From: Anaerolineaceae bacterium
GTDB lineage: Bacteria; Chloroflexota; Anaerolineae; Aggregatilineales; Phototrophicaceae
NCBI GenBank assembly: GCA_007693385.1
Contig: REDR01000131.1
Location: 124,001 to 188,000, forward strand
Direction of reading: 5' to 3'
DNA length: 64,000 nt
The position numbers and the translations under genes are program-made. Position 1 is the first letter of the stretch. Each line of letters starts with the position of its first letter. Shown in pieces: positions 5,693-14,822 of this stretch. A model generated the notes under the pieces. The model ran no database searches and had not been told where the DNA came from. It saw nothing but the letters and a program-made list of their open reading frames with translations.

Positions 5693-7606
5693 ATGAGGCG
5701 TTTCGCGTTGATGACCGCATTGCTAGTGATGGTCGCCGCTTCCGCGCTGACATGGACGAATGTAGAGGCGACGGGAGTCACGGCGGAGGCGGTTGGCTCG
5801 GCCAATTTGCGCTCCTTGCCGACTGTTGAAGGTGAGTTGATCGGTGAGATACGCAACGGCACGCGCTATCCGGTCATCGGGCGCAGTGAGTTCTTCCCGT
5901 GGGTGCTTCTCGGGCGTCTGGATGGGCTGGGGGCGATGGGCTGGGTGTTTCAGGAGTTGGTGACGATACGGGGCGATCTGAACGTCGTACCCTTCAGCGA
6001 ACAGGAAGTCATCCCCGGCCAGATCAACGAACCGCCACCATCCGACGACGCGCCGCCATCCGACGACGGCGACGGTGAACCCACCGCTACGCTACTCCCC
6101 GATGTGGTGGTGACATCCGGCAACACGCCCACGCCGGAATCGATAGGTGAGCAGGCCACGCCCACTGCTGAACCGACGCAAATACCCGGGATTGTCGGGA
6201 CGGCGCTAGGGTCAATCAATGTGCGCTATGGGCCGGGAGTCGGCTTTCAGCCGCTATATCGCGCTTCGACGGGGGAGATGTTCGAAGTCATCGGCTATCA
6301 TACGCAGTTCCCATGGGTGCAGGTGCGCTTCGAGGATTCGCCCAACGGCGCGGCGTGGATTTCAATTGACCTGCTCGATATACAGGGCAATCTATTCAGC
6401 ACACAGCCGATCTCTACCACTAACTTCAACGATCTGCCCACGCTGACGCCGACTCCGGCGATGCGGGCGTCGTTCAATCCGGTGACCGGCGCGGAAGTCC
6501 CGATCAGTGACGAATTCGCCGCGCTGGGCGATTCGCTGTGGGACTACATCATGAGTCGTAATTTCTTGCTGGGTACGGAGCGCTTCGGCGCGTTGTTCAT
6601 CGGCGATTTGCAGACCGGCGAGGCGATCTCATACGGTAGCGAATACGCCTTTAGCGGCACCAGCATCAACAAAATCGCTATCTTGATGGCCTACTTCGGC
6701 GTGTTGGATGGTGCGCCGACTCCAGCCCAAGCCCGCGACATCGCCAACACGATGATCTGTAGCGAGAACGTGGCGACTAATCGCCTATTGGAGTTGGTCG
6801 GCGGTGGCGATGACCTGCGCGGCGCGGAGGAGACGACACGCTTCTTGCGTGAACTCGGCCTGCGGAATACGTTCATCACCGCGCCGTATCACACCACGAC
6901 GGAACGCGCCACATCAACGCCGATGCCGCGTCCGGCGGAAATCCCGCGCACCGAAGCCAATCAGGAAACAGCCAACCCCAACCCCACCAACCAGCTAACG
7001 GTAGATGAGATGGGCTGGCTGTTGACCAACATCTATGAATGCGCCTACAACGAAGGCGGCCCGTTGCTAGAGGACATTAGCGCGGATAGCATATTCTCCT
7101 TCACGCCGCAGGACTGCCGCAAGATGCTATACATCATGAGCGAAAATACCGTTGATGGCATGATGAAAGCCGGTATGCCTGATGATATGGTGGTATCGCA
7201 CAAGCACGGCTGGCTGTTCGAGACGCACACCAACGCCGGCATTTTCTTCACGCCGAATCGTGATCTAGTGATGGTGATGGCCTTGCATCAGCCCGGCTTC
7301 TTGATCTTCGGCGAGGACTCCCTGCCGACTTTCGCGCATACGTCTATGCGGGCGTACAACTACTACAACCCTGAAACCGCGTTAGACGAACCGCGTGAAG
7401 GGTTCATCCCGCCGGTGGATCAATGCAACTACGGCGTCAATGATCCCATCGTGCAGAATTTAGCATCGTCCAACTTCCTCAGCCGCAACGAGCCGGGACT
7501 GTCCTTCAGCCCTGATCTGTCGCCTGATCTGGCGCTGACGCCCACCTTGCGCCCGACATGGACTCCCGCCCCCGACGAGATCGGCGCGGCGGACTCTGAC
7601 GATTAG
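5693..7606 (+). CDS. Secreted protein with two SH3-like domains and a class A beta-lactamase-like serine hydrolase domain
   Basis: 637-residue exported protein. A signal peptide (about 1-27) is followed by a bacterial SH3-like domain (about 28-90, ANLRSLPTVEGELIGEI), a Pro/Thr-rich linker, a second SH3-like domain (about 165-225, INVRYGPGVGFQPLYRA) and another linker. The serine-hydrolase domain spans about 270-560. Its three motifs are in order: SxxK as SINK (about residue 323), SEN for SDN (about 356) and KHG for KTG (about 502). Two family readings fit: a class A beta-lactamase relative or a peptidoglycan-acting serine hydrolase. The SH3 domains would bind the cell wall, favouring an envelope role over drug resistance. 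RBS GAGGT (5682-5686). A Pro/Asp-rich tail ends the protein. Confidence 0.85.
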   Translation: MRRFALMTALLVMVAASALTWTNVEATGVTAEAVGSANLRSLPTVEGELIGEIRNGTRYPVIGRSEFFPWVLLGRLDGLGAMGWVFQELVTIRGDLNVVPFSEQEVIPGQINEPPPSDDAPPSDDGDGEPTATLLPDVVVTSGNTPTPESIGEQATPTAEPTQIPGIVGTALGSINVRYGPGVGFQPLYRASTGEMFEVIGYHTQFPWVQVRFEDSPNGAAWISIDLLDIQGNLFSTQPISTTNFNDLPTLTPTPAMRASFNPVTGAEVPISDEFAALGDSLWDYIMSRNFLLGTERFGALFIGDLQTGEAISYGSEYAFSGTSINKIAILMAYFGVLDGAPTPAQARDIANTMICSENVATNRLLELVGGGDDLRGAEETTRFLRELGLRNTFITAPYHTTTERATSTPMPRPAEIPRTEANQETANPNPTNQLTVDEMGWLLTNIYECAYNEGGPLLEDISADSIFSFTPQDCRKMLYIMSENTVDGMMKAGMPDDMVVSHKHGWLFETHTNAGIFFTPNRDLVMVMALHQPGFLIFGEDSLPTFAHTSMRAYNYYNPETALDEPREGFIPPVDQCNYGVNDPIVQNLASSNFLSRNEPGLSFSPDLSPDLALTPTLRPTWTPAPDEIGAADSDD

Positions 7607-8466: not shown

Positions 8467-9486
8467 TTAACCTTTGACCGAGCCTTGCGTCAGCCCGCCG
8501 ACGATCTGATCCTGCAAGATGAGATACAGGACGACGGAAGGCACGCCGGACACCAGCGCACCGGCGGCGAATTTGCCCCAATCGCGGTTGAATTCCGCGC
8601 TGATGAAGTTGTACAACCCGACCATCAGCGTCCAATTCTCCTGCGAGCGTAGCACGATACGCGCCAGCACGAACTCGTTAAACGTGCCGACGAACGCCAG
8701 CACGCCGACGACGGCCAGAATTGGCCGTACAAGCGGGAAGATCAGCGACCAGAAGATTTGCCAGTGTGAAGCACCGTCAACCAGCGCCGACTCGTCGATG
8801 TCACGCGGCACGGAGTCGAAGAAGCCTTTCATCAGCCATGTGTTGATGCCCATCGCCCCGCCCATGTAAATCAAGATCAGGCCGCCCAGACTGTTCAGGC
8901 CGAACAGCCGCAAGAAGCTCCAATCAATGAACGACAGGAACGGTAACGCGATGGGGATGGCTTCCGCCAACCGTCCGATTTCCAGCAAGATCAAGAACAG
9001 CGCCACCATCGACAGCAGATTCGGGAACGCCTGAATCAGCAGGATGCCCAGCAACAACTGCCGCCGCCCCATGAAGCGGAAGCGGCTGAAGCTGTACGCG
9101 CTGAGCGCGGTGATAAGCACCACTAGAATCGTGCTGGTACCGGCCACGATGAACGAATTGCCGATCCAGTTCCAGAACGGATAGATGTCCAGCCGATCCA
9201 CCATCAGGGCGCGGAAGTTGATCGTCAGATCGCCGATGTCGTCAACGCCCGCCGGTATGAATGTCTGCGTGGACAGCGTACCAGTCGGGTTGAACGCCGA
9301 TGAGACGATAAACATAACCGGAAACAGCGCGAACGTGATAGCGATGCCGATGATAGTCAGGCGTACCGTCAGCGAGATGATCTGCTCACGGCGCGACACG
9401 ACCATGCGGCTCTCGCTATGACTGCCCGACCCGCCCTTCGCGGCGGCGACAACAACCGCATCTTGTTTTGGCGTAATATCAGACAT
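8467..9486 (-). CDS. malG: MalG-type sugar ABC transporter permease
   Basis: Inner-membrane permease subunit of a carbohydrate importer of the maltose type, 339 residues, six predicted membrane spans. The first is around residues 30-55 (IISLTVRLTIIGIAITFALF). The conserved EAA loop that docks to the ATPase is seen in ESALVDGASHWQIFWSLIFP (about residues 228-250). The C-terminus VGGLTQGSVKG is characteristic of MalG. I start at ATG 9486 because GGAGGAGG lies 9 bases upstream; a TTG at 9495 is possible but lacks a spaced RBS. It overlaps the end of malF by 8 bases, so the two are coupled. The ATPase (MalK/MsmX) is not in the window and is probably shared and encoded elsewhere. Confidence 0.92.
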   Translation of the reverse strand: MSDITPKQDAVVVAAAKGGSGSHSESRMVVSRREQIISLTVRLTIIGIAITFALFPVMFIVSSAFNPTGTLSTQTFIPAGVDDIGDLTINFRALMVDRLDIYPFWNWIGNSFIVAGTSTILVVLITALSAYSFSRFRFMGRRQLLLGILLIQAFPNLLSMVALFLILLEIGRLAEAIPIALPFLSFIDWSFLRLFGLNSLGGLILIYMGGAMGINTWLMKGFFDSVPRDIDESALVDGASHWQIFWSLIFPLVRPILAVVGVLAFVGTFNEFVLARIVLRSQENWTLMVGLYNFISAEFNRDWGKFAAGALVSGVPSVVLYLILQDQIVGGLTQGSVKG

Positions 9487-12400
9487 TTTCGCCAACCTCC
9501 TCCCATTGTCTGGTGAAGCGGAATTGGATCATCGTGACGACGGCCACCAGCGCGAAGATCACGATGGTGATGGCGGATGCGTAGCCGTATTGAGCGCCGC
9601 GATCCGTGCCGAACGCCAGATTATACGTGTAACTGATGAGGATGTCCGTATAACCGGCGGGCGTCGGTGTGTTGGGTATCGGTGGATTACCCTGTGTCAA
9701 TAGCTCGATCAGCAGATAATTATTGAAGTTAAATGTGAACGAAGCGATCAACAGCGGGCCAACCGTGACCAGCAGTAGCGGCAAGGTGATATTCCAGAAG
9801 CGCTGGAACACACGAGCGCCATCAACGGCGGCGGCCTCATACACATCGGAGGGGATCGCCTGTAACGCGCCGCTACAAATCAGCATCATATACGGATAGC
9901 CCAGCCACAGATTCACCAGCAAGATCGCGGTCTTCGCCAGCGTCGGGTCGGTGAACCATTGCGGACGCACGCCGAACAGGTCGGCAAACGTATTCGTGAT
10001 GATGCCGAGATTTTGATTCAACATACCTTGCCATACGATGATGCCGATCACGCCCGGTATCGCATAAGGGATGATGAGCAACGAACGGATGATCTTCTTG
10101 CCCGGAATGCCGTCATCGTTGAGGATGATCGCCATGAACAGACCGGCTACGAAGGTCATGAACACCGACAATAGCGCGAACGTCACCGTCCAGACGAAAA
10201 TATCCAGCAACGGCCCATACAGACGCGGGTCGTCGATCAAGCGCTGGAAGTTCAGCAGGCCGATATTGACTCGATAGCCCGGGTTCAACGTCGGCGCACT
10301 CGAATCCAGCGCCAGTACATAGCGCTCGCCGTCGATCTGCGGGCGGCGTAACGTCTCTTCGTAGACTAGCGGACTGATGCGGATGCTGTTGAACTGGTTA
10401 CGCACCAGCGTCGCAGAGGCGATGATGTCGATGGTGTCCGGGTTGAACGTCGCCAGATCAACGCCGTCGATTCGGATGCCGTCGGCCAGATAGATGTAGC
10501 CGTCAACTTTATCGTTGCGCGTCGGGCGAGTCGTGTCGTGATACAGCAACGGCTCGCGGGCGACGCTCAGCGCGAACGCGGTCACGATCACGCCTTCTTC
10601 GACTAGCTGATCGACGATGGGGGCGGGGTCTTCGACGCCTTCAACCGCGTCAATGCGGCTGAGATCGACATACCCTTCGAGAGTTTCCACCCAGAAGTAA
10701 TCGGCGGGGACATAGGAGTTGGTTGCATCGTCGAAGTACAGGATGGCCGCCCGTGCGAATGCTTCGTCGCTCAGATCGGCGGTGGCGGCTTCTTCGGTGC
10801 TGATCTCCGCGCTGGGCGGGATGGAGTCGATGTTGACGAAGGCGTTGGCCTGCGCGTTGAACACCCAGTTTTGCGGCGCATACACGCCTTGATCGGCGAA
10901 GCGCTGATAAACCGTCAACTGATCGCTTGTCAGCAGGTCGATCAACGGTAGCTCAAGGTCGGTCAGTTCGATGCCTTCCAGATCGAGCGCGTCTATATCG
11001 ACGCCGCTCAGCGTGATGAACTGCCCGCCCGCCTCGTTGTACACCCACTCAGACGGCGCATAGATTCCAGCCGCCTCGTATCGGATAACGTAAGACACGC
11101 CGGAGTCGCGCAGGGCTTCAGCCGTCACATCTTCTAGGCCGGGTTCGCCGCGTGCATCAACGAAAGCATCGACGCCCGCGTTATACACCCAGCCGACAGG
11201 GGCGAAGACGCCAGCTTCGGGGAATTCATTAAACAGGGTTGCGCCGCCGAATCCCGGGATTGATCCCGGCGGGCGCGTGGCGATGTCCGGCCCGGTCACG
11301 TCGCCGACATTAACCAGACTGACGCTGTTCAGGTCGAGCCATGCGTCTTCGGTCTCGCTATATACAAAGCGCAGGCGCACCGCGTCGAATGTACCGGTGC
11401 TGTCGTTCGCCAGATATTGCACCACGCCCAAGAAGCCGGGCGCGTTGTATGGCGTCTCTTCTTCCAGATTAAGCGCGGAGATATTCATTCCGGCGGCTTC
11501 CACCGTCGAGAGATCAACGAAGGCCTGCTCGATGTCGTTGAAGATATAACGCAGGAAGTACGGCTGACCGGCGCGGCCTAATTGCGCGGGGATAATGCCG
11601 ATGCGCTCATTAGGCGGATCGTCCGGCGCGCCGAAGTAATCGACCTCTATATCCTGCAAGAAGGCGACGGCTTCCGCCCGTTCACGATCGCCGAGCGCCA
11701 GCGTGAAGCCGCGAAAATCGGCGGGCGTCCCGTTGAGGAACATCGTTTCGTCCGGACGCGCTAATACTGTACTCAGCCGTCCGCGTTCGCGGGTGTCGCT
11801 ATCCAGCCACAGCGCGAACGCGCCGTCCTCTGATTGGAAGATGGCGACCTCGTATATCAGGCCGGTGCGGTAGTCGATGGCTAGCTCTTGTTCAACATCC
11901 AGCACGAACGCGGCGTTGAAGTCGAATTCACGGATGGCGAAGCCCGCCGCCACGCCTTCCAGCGTGCTATCGAGAATATCCTCCGGCGCGGGCACGCGAT
12001 TAAACGCGCCGATGCGATCCGGGATGAAAGCGCCCGCCGACAAGCGGATGCCCAGTGTATCCATCACGCGCCGGTTGCCCACGTCAATCTCGCGGATGTT
12101 CTGGCCGGGCAGGATGAGCAAGGCGCGGTTGATGCGCCGCAAGCCGCTTTCCGTCAGCCACAGCGCGAAGTCGCCCGCTTCGTTCTCGAAGTATGTCGTA
12201 TCGTATACGCGGGCGTTACGCTGATTGATGGTCAGCGATTGTATCGGATCGAACACGTATTGCGGCGTTAGGGCGTAGATGCCGAAGCTATCTTGCGTCG
12301 CCGGATCAATCGGCTCAATGCGAATCTGACCGACAGGCGCATCAAACGAGAAGGAGGTAATACCGGCCTCCGCGATGGCCTCTATGCCGACGCGCTCGAA

Positions 12401-13282
12401 ACCATCAATGACCGGCAGGCGGCCAATGTAAATCGGCTCATCCGGGCGGGCCAGATAGCTGGTACCGTCCTCTGCATCCCACGCGAAGCCGAATTCATCG
12501 CCACGTTGTAACACCGTCACCGGGGCGGTGCTTTCCGTCTCGCGGTCATAGATAATGCCCTGTGTGGCCGCCACGACATAACGCGCCGATGTCTCGACAT
12601 TTTCCGGCGCGGATAACGCCACCGCGATCAGCCCGACGGGTTCAGCGAATTCGAGTTCCAGCGTTTGCCCCCCCAACGCGCCGATGAGCGGGCCGGGTTG
12701 GTCTAGCCGTGTAAATCCGCCTGATGTAGCGACGGGCGGCATGGTGAAGCCGAAATCGGATAGATCAATCTCGCGCAGAGGTTCACCCTGTTCGGCGAAG
12801 ATGACCTCGCCGGTGCGGTCATCCACCAGCCACAGCGCGAAGTCGTCTTCGCCGCCACGATATGGCGTATAAGTGAACGTCCGCGCATCATCCGGCACAT
12901 AGCCCCGATCCGCGATCAGGCGTACCGCCTGTGACTTGCCGAATAGATGCCCGTCGCCGTAGTTGGTGAATGCGTTCTGTACGGTATAAATAACAGGATA
13001 AATGACGAGCATGGTCATTAACGCCAGACCGGGCGACATCCAGCGCAACGGATACAGGCGTGGTATGAACATGATGAGGTTAAAACCAATGGTGACGATG
13101 GCGATGACCAGACCGAGCCCGGGTTCGCCCTCCCGCAGTAAGCTATAAACAATCACCAGCCCGAACGCATTGAGCAACATAAGCCCCAATAGCATCAAGA
13201 CCGATGAAACGGTAGTCGTCCTTTGATTTGAAAAAGCGCGGCCCTCTTTCGAAGGCCGCGCTTCTTGACCGGTTGCGCTCAT
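9479..13282 (-). CDS. malF: MalF-type sugar ABC transporter permease with giant extracytoplasmic insertion
   Basis: 1267-residue permease, far larger than E. coli MalF (514). Three N-terminal membrane segments (about 27-49, 57-75, 83-103) are followed by a roughly 900-residue insertion at the place of the MalF P2 loop. The normal permease core runs from about residue 1024 to the end, with the EAA loop in YEAAAVDGARVFQRFWNI. The insertion has its own repeats. A DFALWL-type motif occurs near residues 146, 370 and 487, and a GVYAP-x-x-WVYN-type motif near 697, 745 and 805, with a looser copy near 862. In E. coli, P2 contacts MalE. The start at 13282 has no clear RBS, lies 10 bases after malE, and the first 20 codons contain a terminator-like hairpin. 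M30 is an alternative start. Confidence 0.88.
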   Translation of the reverse strand: MSATGQEARPSKEGRAFSNQRTTTVSSVLMLLGLMLLNAFGLVIVYSLLREGEPGLGLVIAIVTIGFNLIMFIPRLYPLRWMSPGLALMTMLVIYPVIYTVQNAFTNYGDGHLFGKSQAVRLIADRGYVPDDARTFTYTPYRGGEDDFALWLVDDRTGEVIFAEQGEPLREIDLSDFGFTMPPVATSGGFTRLDQPGPLIGALGGQTLELEFAEPVGLIAVALSAPENVETSARYVVAATQGIIYDRETESTAPVTVLQRGDEFGFAWDAEDGTSYLARPDEPIYIGRLPVIDGFERVGIEAIAEAGITSFSFDAPVGQIRIEPIDPATQDSFGIYALTPQYVFDPIQSLTINQRNARVYDTTYFENEAGDFALWLTESGLRRINRALLILPGQNIREIDVGNRRVMDTLGIRLSAGAFIPDRIGAFNRVPAPEDILDSTLEGVAAGFAIREFDFNAAFVLDVEQELAIDYRTGLIYEVAIFQSEDGAFALWLDSDTRERGRLSTVLARPDETMFLNGTPADFRGFTLALGDRERAEAVAFLQDIEVDYFGAPDDPPNERIGIIPAQLGRAGQPYFLRYIFNDIEQAFVDLSTVEAAGMNISALNLEEETPYNAPGFLGVVQYLANDSTGTFDAVRLRFVYSETEDAWLDLNSVSLVNVGDVTGPDIATRPPGSIPGFGGATLFNEFPEAGVFAPVGWVYNAGVDAFVDARGEPGLEDVTAEALRDSGVSYVIRYEAAGIYAPSEWVYNEAGGQFITLSGVDIDALDLEGIELTDLELPLIDLLTSDQLTVYQRFADQGVYAPQNWVFNAQANAFVNIDSIPPSAEISTEEAATADLSDEAFARAAILYFDDATNSYVPADYFWVETLEGYVDLSRIDAVEGVEDPAPIVDQLVEEGVIVTAFALSVAREPLLYHDTTRPTRNDKVDGYIYLADGIRIDGVDLATFNPDTIDIIASATLVRNQFNSIRISPLVYEETLRRPQIDGERYVLALDSSAPTLNPGYRVNIGLLNFQRLIDDPRLYGPLLDIFVWTVTFALLSVFMTFVAGLFMAIILNDDGIPGKKIIRSLLIIPYAIPGVIGIIVWQGMLNQNLGIITNTFADLFGVRPQWFTDPTLAKTAILLVNLWLGYPYMMLICSGALQAIPSDVYEAAAVDGARVFQRFWNITLPLLLVTVGPLLIASFTFNFNNYLLIELLTQGNPPIPNTPTPAGYTDILISYTYNLAFGTDRGAQYGYASAITIVIFALVAVVTMIQFRFTRQWEEVGENV
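13231..13263 (-). terminator. Terminator/attenuator-like hairpin between malE and malF
   Basis: On the minus strand AAGCGCGGCC and GGCCGCGCTT form a perfect 10-bp stem (plus coordinates 13254-13263 and 13234-13243) with a 10-base loop. It runs into TTTTT. It begins 30 bases after the malE stop but lies within malF codons 7-17, so it could end most transcripts after malE and let a minority read into malFG. Confidence 0.7.
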
Positions 13283-13292
13283 GGTCTATTCG

Positions 13293-14822
13293 TTAGCCGT
13301 CGATGCGCTCGCCGAAAACACTGTCAGTCAGAATCTTGGTGTCGTCATTGAAGGTGAAGGTCACAACGGTGTCCTCTTCCAGCACGAGCGGGATGTTCGG
13401 GCCGTCGGCAACGCCGCCCAGACCGTAATTCTCGCCCCAAGCGCCGTCCATGGCGACCTTGAATTCGTATTCACCCGCCGGGATTTCCAGCGTGATTTCG
13501 TAGATGTCGTCCTCAACCAGCGTCATGAAGGTCGCTTCACAGGCCGGGTTCCAGTCGCCATCACAACCGACCAGCGATTGGAAGTTACCGGGCAGGCCGA
13601 TAACGCGCTCGCCGGATTGCGCGATGTCGATGGCTTCACGGATTTGCACCGCGCCATTCAAGAAACTGCTCTCGGGGTTTTCGCCCTGGCTCACGAGGAT
13701 CAGCGCGTCGCCAGCACCCGCCCACACAGCCGCCATTTCGCGGATATTGGGCATCGGCACCGCATCTTCACCCGCCGCGAGGAAGCCGGGGATGTTCGGG
13801 TCGGTGGTGGTCACACCAGCGAACACCGGGAAGCGTTGCGTCAGGCGTTGCATGGAGTCCTGCGTGGCGATGAACTCGTACAGGAACTGCTGTGCCAGTA
13901 GCGGTTGCTCGGTGAAGGCGCTAATCATGAAGCCTTGACCACCGGAGAACGGCGTACCCGCTTCGGCGCGGCCTTCAGCGCCCGGGAAGCCACTCAGCTC
14001 ATACTCGAACCCACCGATTTCGGCGGCGTCGATGATGCGCTGGCTGAACCACGGGCCGGTGATGAACATGGCTAGTTCACCGGCTTCAAACAAGGAGAAG
14101 ATCACGTCGTTATCGACGTTCGGCACCATCAGACCTTCGGCGTACATTTCGCCCAGCCATTCAGCCGCCGCCAGACCGCCTTCGCTATCGAAGCCGACAT
14201 CCGCCGGGTTGAAGTTGCCATTCGGCAGACGCCCGAAGATGTAGCCCTCAAACGCGGTCAGGATGGGGTAGTGGTGGTAGGTGTCGCCGGTCTGGATCAG
14301 GAACGCATATTCCGCGTCGCCGGATTCGCGCAGTTCACGCGCCAGCTCGGTCACGCCTTCCCACGTTGCCGGAACTTCCGGTACCAGATCAACGTTACGC
14401 ACTAAGGCGACGTTTTCGGTCTGGTAGGGGAGTGCCCACAGTTGTTCGTTATAGGTGAATAGGTCTGTGCCGATGGGGGCAAAAAGATCAGCCAGATCGC
14501 CCAGCTCAAGCGGCAGAACCGCGCCGTTGTCAACCAACTGGCCGACGTTATCGTGCGGCTGAATCAGAATATCGGGGCCTTCGCCGGCCTCGCCAAAGTT
14601 CAACAACTCTTGACGTGCTTCGGCCAATCCGATTTCACGAATCTGGATGCTAACGCCGAAGTTCGCTTCATATTCTTCACCAAGTTCGGTCAGGACTGGG
14701 GCGCGTTCGCCGTCTGCCCAGATGACCAGTGTCTGACCTTGACCCATAGCGGGCACAATGCTGATGGCCGCCATCATCACGGCAGTCAGCGCACTCAACA
14801 GAATCAATCTTGTACGTTTCAT
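13293..14822 (-). CDS. malE: Maltose/maltodextrin-type solute-binding protein with C-terminal X25 module
   Basis: 509-residue exported binding protein of the MalE family. A signal peptide (about 1-27) precedes the family 1 solute-binding domain (about 30-405): TLVIWADGERAPVLTELGEE, GPDILIQPHDNVGQL, LPYQTENVALVRN, AMFITGPWF and GGQGFMISAFTEQPLLAQQF. A second domain (about 408-507) closely resembles the X25 module of pullulanases, with GCDGDWNPACE, LEIPAGEYEFKVAMDGAWGE and GVADGPNIPLVL. This module is normally found on starch-degrading enzymes, so the ligand is probably a maltodextrin. AAAGGAC precedes the ATG by about 9 bases. It is first in the malEFG operon, with its own promoter. Confidence 0.9.
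   Translation of the reverse strand: MKRTRLILLSALTAVMMAAISIVPAMGQGQTLVIWADGERAPVLTELGEEYEANFGVSIQIREIGLAEARQELLNFGEAGEGPDILIQPHDNVGQLVDNGAVLPLELGDLADLFAPIGTDLFTYNEQLWALPYQTENVALVRNVDLVPEVPATWEGVTELARELRESGDAEYAFLIQTGDTYHHYPILTAFEGYIFGRLPNGNFNPADVGFDSEGGLAAAEWLGEMYAEGLMVPNVDNDVIFSLFEAGELAMFITGPWFSQRIIDAAEIGGFEYELSGFPGAEGRAEAGTPFSGGQGFMISAFTEQPLLAQQFLYEFIATQDSMQRLTQRFPVFAGVTTTDPNIPGFLAAGEDAVPMPNIREMAAVWAGAGDALILVSQGENPESSFLNGAVQIREAIDIAQSGERVIGLPGNFQSLVGCDGDWNPACEATFMTLVEDDIYEITLEIPAGEYEFKVAMDGAWGENYGLGGVADGPNIPLVLEEDTVVTFTFNDDTKILTDSVFGERIDG

Follow-up and report, generated by a model that had tools for sequence, protein, structure and literature searches.

The MalF subunit encoded in the analysed window (the whole stretch of DNA, 64,000 nucleotides) carries an extracytoplasmic segment of ~900 amino acids that, as judged by sequence comparison, arose from an ordinary P2 domain through successive in-frame duplications within the gene, which left tandem copies, and is not a foreign or new domain. 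Four P2 units are followed by an array of five shorter repeats. To our knowledge, P2 is the best-studied scaffold for holding the binding protein in ABC importers, and is normally present in one copy. The kind of importer is known; amplification of its scaffold domain by P2 multiplication is not described in the open-access literature searched, many subscription papers being outside that scope.

The MalF gene and its four P2 units

The malF gene (9479-13282, minus strand) encodes 1,267 amino acids in one open frame with no stop. It lies in a malE-malF-malG operon on one strand, with malE (13293-14822, minus) upstream at the operon start and malG (8467-9495, minus) downstream, overlapping the end of malF. 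MalE matches SBP_bac_8 (1.9e-30) and NCBIfam MalE (2.3e-54) and MalG matches NCBIfam MalG (2.8e-57), both NCBIfam matches being below their equivalog cut-offs. The whole MalF protein passes the NCBIfam MalF equivalog NF008232 (401.4 bits vs a cut-off of 392); as a six-frame genome hit the gene reaches 350 bits with this model, only the stretch 256-517 being scored. TM1-TM3 (residues 22-105; 12968-13219, minus) are evident from hydropathy, with a Pfam TM_PBP2_N match (PF16296, 1.9e-13) at residues 88-160, and residues 27-161, including the start of P2, align to residues 18-144 of E. coli MalF (E = 1.5e-7). The permease core TM4-TM8 (residues 998-1267; 9482-10291, minus) matches BPD_transp_1 (PF00528, 1.4e-21) and aligns over residues 998-1258 to E. 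coli MalF 250-510 (E = 6.7e-83), with the EAA motif EAAAVDGA at about residues 1149-1156. Judging from these alignments, the protein is a true MalF with its permease core untouched.

The window protein thus shares with E. coli MalF (structure of MalFGK2-E, PDB 2r6g) the TM4-TM8 core, the EAA motif, a P2 between TM3 and TM4 and an alignable P2 start, but differs in having four P2 units and five short repeats (~900 amino acids) where E. coli MalF has one P2 of ~180 amino acids. TM3 ends near residue 105 and the core restarts at LNPGYRVN (residues ~998-1006), so that the segment spans residues 105-1006 (10265-12970). The sequence-only reading had called this protein a MalF with an intact core, no frameshift and a roughly fivefold larger insertion in the place of P2, following the third span, and all of these claims hold: identity is supported by the NF008232 score, the core alignment, the N-terminal spans and the malE/malG operon, and the frame is single.

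A canonical P2 HMM of about 140 amino acids, made with 20 normal-loop MalFs from this order, matches the window MalF three times, at residues 128-251 (4e-14), 355-401 (8e-8) and 474-593 (4e-12). Profile comparison adds a fourth repeat, so that between TM3 and TM4 there are three HMM matches and four profile-related units instead of a single-copy P2. We divided the segment at a recurring 'RYVYD...D..TG' hairpin, with points picked by eye and borders therefore approximate, into four tandem units of ~106-141 amino acids, all on the minus strand. Unit 1 (residues 126-231; 12590-12907) matches the canonical P2 with an E-value of 1.4e-14 in profile-profile comparison, unit 3 (residues 339-455; 11918-12268) with 2e-8, and unit 4, which includes its own C-terminal hairpin (residues 456-596; 11495-11917), with 3e-13. 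Unit 2 (residues 232-338; 12269-12589), the one found by profile comparison, is the most diverged, and is related to unit 3 (7.9e-13), unit 4 (2e-10) and P2 (2e-5). The repeats are visible to profiles only: protein self-BLAST of the insert returned no repeat pairs, and no DNA tandem repeats were found in malF beyond one 19-base array, which suggests that the duplications are old.

The insertion had been expected to add new beta domains; HMM and profile comparison return instead four copies of P2 and, probably, a repeated C-terminal piece of P2. A Pfam search of the segment at E-values up to 10 gave nothing over cut-off and no carbohydrate-binding or solute-binding domain, and a PDB profile search with the segment gave no significant match. 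These results bear on two other roles. Replacement of the binding protein by the segment is unlikely, because malE adjoins and Pfam shows no solute-binding domain in the segment. It is very improbable, too, that the repeats bind polysaccharide in the manner of carbohydrate-binding modules and so hold starch or glycogen at the importer: polymer binding would fit a locus whose adjoining MalE has a starch-type X25 domain, but Pfam returns no such domain for the segment at a threshold as loose as E = 10, and the repeats go back to P2, a domain that is not known to bind sugar.

The VYN repeat array and the constraint on the segment

Downstream of unit 4, residues 617-885 hold five repeats of ~45 amino acids of the type 'Y.r..d.GvYaPq.WVYNa...aFvDi' (VYN repeats), whose starts are 49-61 residues apart. 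The VYN HMM was built from these five repeats and five of the orthologue G055 (described below), and the E-values for the window are thus those of source repeats: 5.9e-17 for repeat 1 (residues 617-662; 11297-11434), 3.5e-20 for repeat 2 (678-721; 11120-11251), 7.5e-18 for repeat 3 (727-765; 10988-11104), 9.3e-22 for repeat 4 (787-829; 10796-10924) and 5.2e-14 for repeat 5 (842-885; 10628-10759), all on the minus strand. With a net charge of -14 per 100 residues, the array is strongly acidic; it stands immediately ahead of the P2 tip and of the LxPGY motif adjoining TM4. The tail that follows (residues 886-997; 10292-10627, minus) is possibly a degenerate sixth repeat, with a weak VYN match in G055 only (911-931, E = 1.4).

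Among 758 ORFs from 31 regions, the VYN HMM ranked ordinary MalFs directly after the two source proteins, with matches at the C-terminal hairpin of P2. The best of these outside matches are individually weak (G090, E = 5e-4; several others, 0.03-0.3), but that the P2 C-termini of MalFs top the ranking is not expected by chance. In ordinary P2, the second half of the repeat is matched by 'RYVYD..tDa.tD' and its first half by 'VYvAdd.TGfF.p', which comes next in the P2 sequence. Because the hairpin register matches the repeat halves in this way, the array looks like a duplicated P2 end, and it probably derives from repeated duplication of that end. Across 61 relatives, the VYN profile is clear only in the source genome and G055, two other hits being at chance level; the VYN part was found in the source genome only among 400 Chloroflexota genomes, in which near relatives are incompletely sampled. 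Likewise, the P2-unit part was found in the source genome only among 396 genomes of the class, the remaining near relatives being covered by the search of the order.

The segment is predicted to be beta-rich, as had been proposed. An AlphaFold model of residues 105-1006 from three sequences was poor (pLDDT 43), and its VIA-align matches, with Z below 4 over ~40 residues, were set aside. A model of three VYN repeats reached a mean pLDDT of 61.5, with four strands per repeat and a pLDDT of 81-87 in the block of the central repeat (repeat 4). A beta-propeller, a closed ring of four-stranded blades, was considered for the array: four strands are predicted per repeat, and with the three-repeat model VIA-align found nothing in the PDB at Z 2 and Foldseek nothing at E = 0.001. 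The top Foldseek row was an OCRE domain (E = 0.47); with the OCRE model PF17780, relatives score 7.4-9.1 bits vs a cut-off of 24.7 and the window protein has no match.

It is evident from a second genome that the segment has been maintained. G055 (Chloroflexi isolate J038, locus L038), which belongs to another genus, encodes a MalF of 1,253 amino acids with the same architecture and the frame kept. The same architecture in this separate assembly refutes the reading of the segment as an assembly or annotation artefact, to which we give practically no credence; the single open frame, the GC content of ~0.60, even along the whole segment, and the lack of malF DNA repeats beyond the 19-base array also speak against it. 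Between the window and G055, third codon positions of the expanded part are 28-34% identical, about chance at the given GC, dN is 0.41-0.69, and for most regions dS is either saturated or cannot be computed. Because G055 preserves length and architecture at these dN and dS values, the segment is translated and kept.

Amino acid identity between the two proteins is 83% in the core and 42% overall in the expanded P2 (38-51% by part), with the VYN repeats and unit 2 least conserved (38-40%). Pairs of single-P2 MalFs whose cores have an identity of 0.81-0.84 (n = 61 pairs) show a P2 identity of 61% (sd 4, minimum 52%). At comparable core identity, the expanded P2 of another long pair, G076 and G077, is 59% identical, which is the normal level. 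The longest version of P2 is therefore under weaker constraint than a single P2, a result that speaks for some units, chiefly unit 2 and the array, being spacers or partly redundant.

Distribution and origin of the multiplication

We surveyed 91 MalFs, comprising the readable members of the order and one Actinomycetota MAG as the outgroup. One P2-sized segment is present in 82 of the 91 and two in five (G002, G003, G074, G132 and G032); two have four P2 units without the VYN array (G076 and G077) and two have four with it (the window and G055). Among the 82 single-segment proteins, a few match the P2 HMM partially and one (G066) has no P2 that the HMM recognises. The latter is a MalF-like permease of 492 amino acids at locus L152. 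Two further MalF frames, of 686 amino acids in G034 (L043:5216-7273, plus strand) and 691 amino acids in G139 (L049:5637-7709, plus strand), have a long N-terminal stretch with several extra predicted spans before the normal TM1. The same insertion, which the sequence-only reading had proposed to seek in other Chloroflexota malF genes, is present in three relatives of the same family.

In the tree of units, unit 1 of all four long MalFs groups together (99/99), as does unit 4 (80/86). In the window and G055, unit 3 falls in one group with units 2 and 3 of G076/G077 (99/98), and unit 2 lies near unit 4. The MalFs of G076/G077 (Anaerolineae Prado090, L039) accordingly correspond to that of the window by position in units 1, 3 and 4, but their second unit comes from unit 3 where that of the window is nearer unit 4, and they are without the VYN array. 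Because units 1, 3 and 4 cluster according to position in different genera, these proteins share a multi-unit ancestor. This common ancestor rests on the unit tree and not on the core tree, in which the two long-P2 groups are not joined with support. The simplest reading of the unit relationships is a three-unit ancestor, from which each branch gained a fourth unit independently, the branch of the window and G055 acquiring the array afterwards.

The double-P2 MalFs are similar to the window protein in having tandem P2 at the same place, but have only two units, no VYN array and a separate origin. The nearest relative of G032 is a single-P2 protein (G049), and G002, G074 and G132 share one further common doubling, from which it follows that P2 doubled at least three times. 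Such recurrent doubling in separate branches suggests that an added P2 is tolerated or favoured.

The same pattern could arise through drift, in which duplications in an exposed loop arise easily and persist as near-harmless, with no added function. The recurrent and patchy occurrence (9 of the 91 MalFs) is consistent with it, as is the faster divergence of the expanded P2 than of the single P2 in the window and G055. However, about 700 extra residues remain in frame despite saturated synonymous sites, and the added units of G076/G077 are conserved as well as a single P2. We regard drift as quite unlikely.

The nearest published case is that of Thermotogales MalG1/MalG2, whose hydrophilic insert of ~500 amino acids was reported without a function or similarity to known proteins (PMC2246101). 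These are also Mal permease subunits with a very large hydrophilic insert, but the insert is in MalG, between TM1 and TM2, and no P2 multiplication was reported; the two cases are set apart here by description only.

MalE and the role of the repeated P2

The N-terminus of the window MalE, MKRTRLILLSALTAVMMAAISIVPAMGQGQ, is a signal peptide without a lipobox. Five further sugar-binding proteins of the same genome (loci L083, L084, L087, L089 and L092) likewise have type I signal peptides that lack the lipobox Cys; these five and MalE (13293-14822) are encoded beside permeases. On binding proteins of a cell with only one membrane, such signal peptides would be unusual, and the class Anaerolineae is generally held to lack an outer membrane. 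Retention of MalE is thus a sensible need. It is not the sole reason for the expansion, because non-lipidated MalE is the rule among the relatives checked, single-P2 ones included.

The C-terminus of MalE (residues 409-496; 13335-13598, minus) is a pullulanase-type, starch-binding-like X25 domain (Pfam X25_BaPul_like, 4.8e-29). MalE-X25 fusions are common to near relatives, and X25 is absent from MalE of more distant members of the order. The window MalE has one copy, and two copies are found in G055, G077, G049 and a C-terminal MalE fragment of G032. A tie between P2 number and X25 is suggestive only: G055, G077 and G032 are multi-P2, but G049 is single-P2, and X25-bearing MalE is also found beside single-P2 MalFs. 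Elsewhere in the window, 5693-7606 encodes a secreted protein of 637 amino acids that, by eye only, has two SH3-like stretches and resembles a serine beta-lactamase in its C-terminal half.

In E. coli, one P2 keeps hold of MalE during the whole transport cycle, and it is from this that we lean, somewhat above even, towards the repeated P2 being a lengthened docking arm, or a larger docking surface, for MalE. The repeats would form a long arm on the outer face that gives MalE more than one landing place, or reaches further out from the membrane to hold it, and would raise the local amount of a MalE that lacks a lipid anchor. In E. coli, P2 residues 240-249 are among the direct contacts with MalE (PMC3150292), the affinity of maltose-free MalE for the outward-open transporter is ~79 nM (PMC3328499), and contact and signalling between P2 and MalE are credited to Daus 2009 and Grote 2009. 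The counterpart of the membrane-near contact piece (E. coli P2 residues 240-252) and the LxPGY motif are C-terminal to all repeats in the window protein, so the normal contact can be kept, and would stay at the base of the arm for normal delivery. The X25 domain of MalE may bind glucan or wall polysaccharide, which would bring substrate to the same place. An identity of 42% with G055 argues against the docking arm, because stronger constraint would be expected on units that each served as an exact MalE site.

A related reading, which we consider unlikely, is that several MalE molecules would be docked at once as a permease-borne reserve, replacing the lipid anchor in a single-membrane bacterium. 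A stalk is possible but rather doubtful: repeats that bind nothing specific would only lengthen P2, so as to take the MalE contact past the thick wall or S-layer surrounding a cell with one membrane. The acidity of the array fits a stalk, as does the low conservation of the VYN repeats and unit 2 relative to the core, whereas the position of the membrane-near contact beside TM4, after the repeats, places the arm at the membrane with both its ends, and a single P2 is found in close relatives whose cells are of the same kind.

The series of one, two, four and four-plus-array P2 segments inside one order offers a direct test of how the copy number and reach of P2 affect transport and the docking of MalE. 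These results also show that importer scaffolds can grow through self-duplication.
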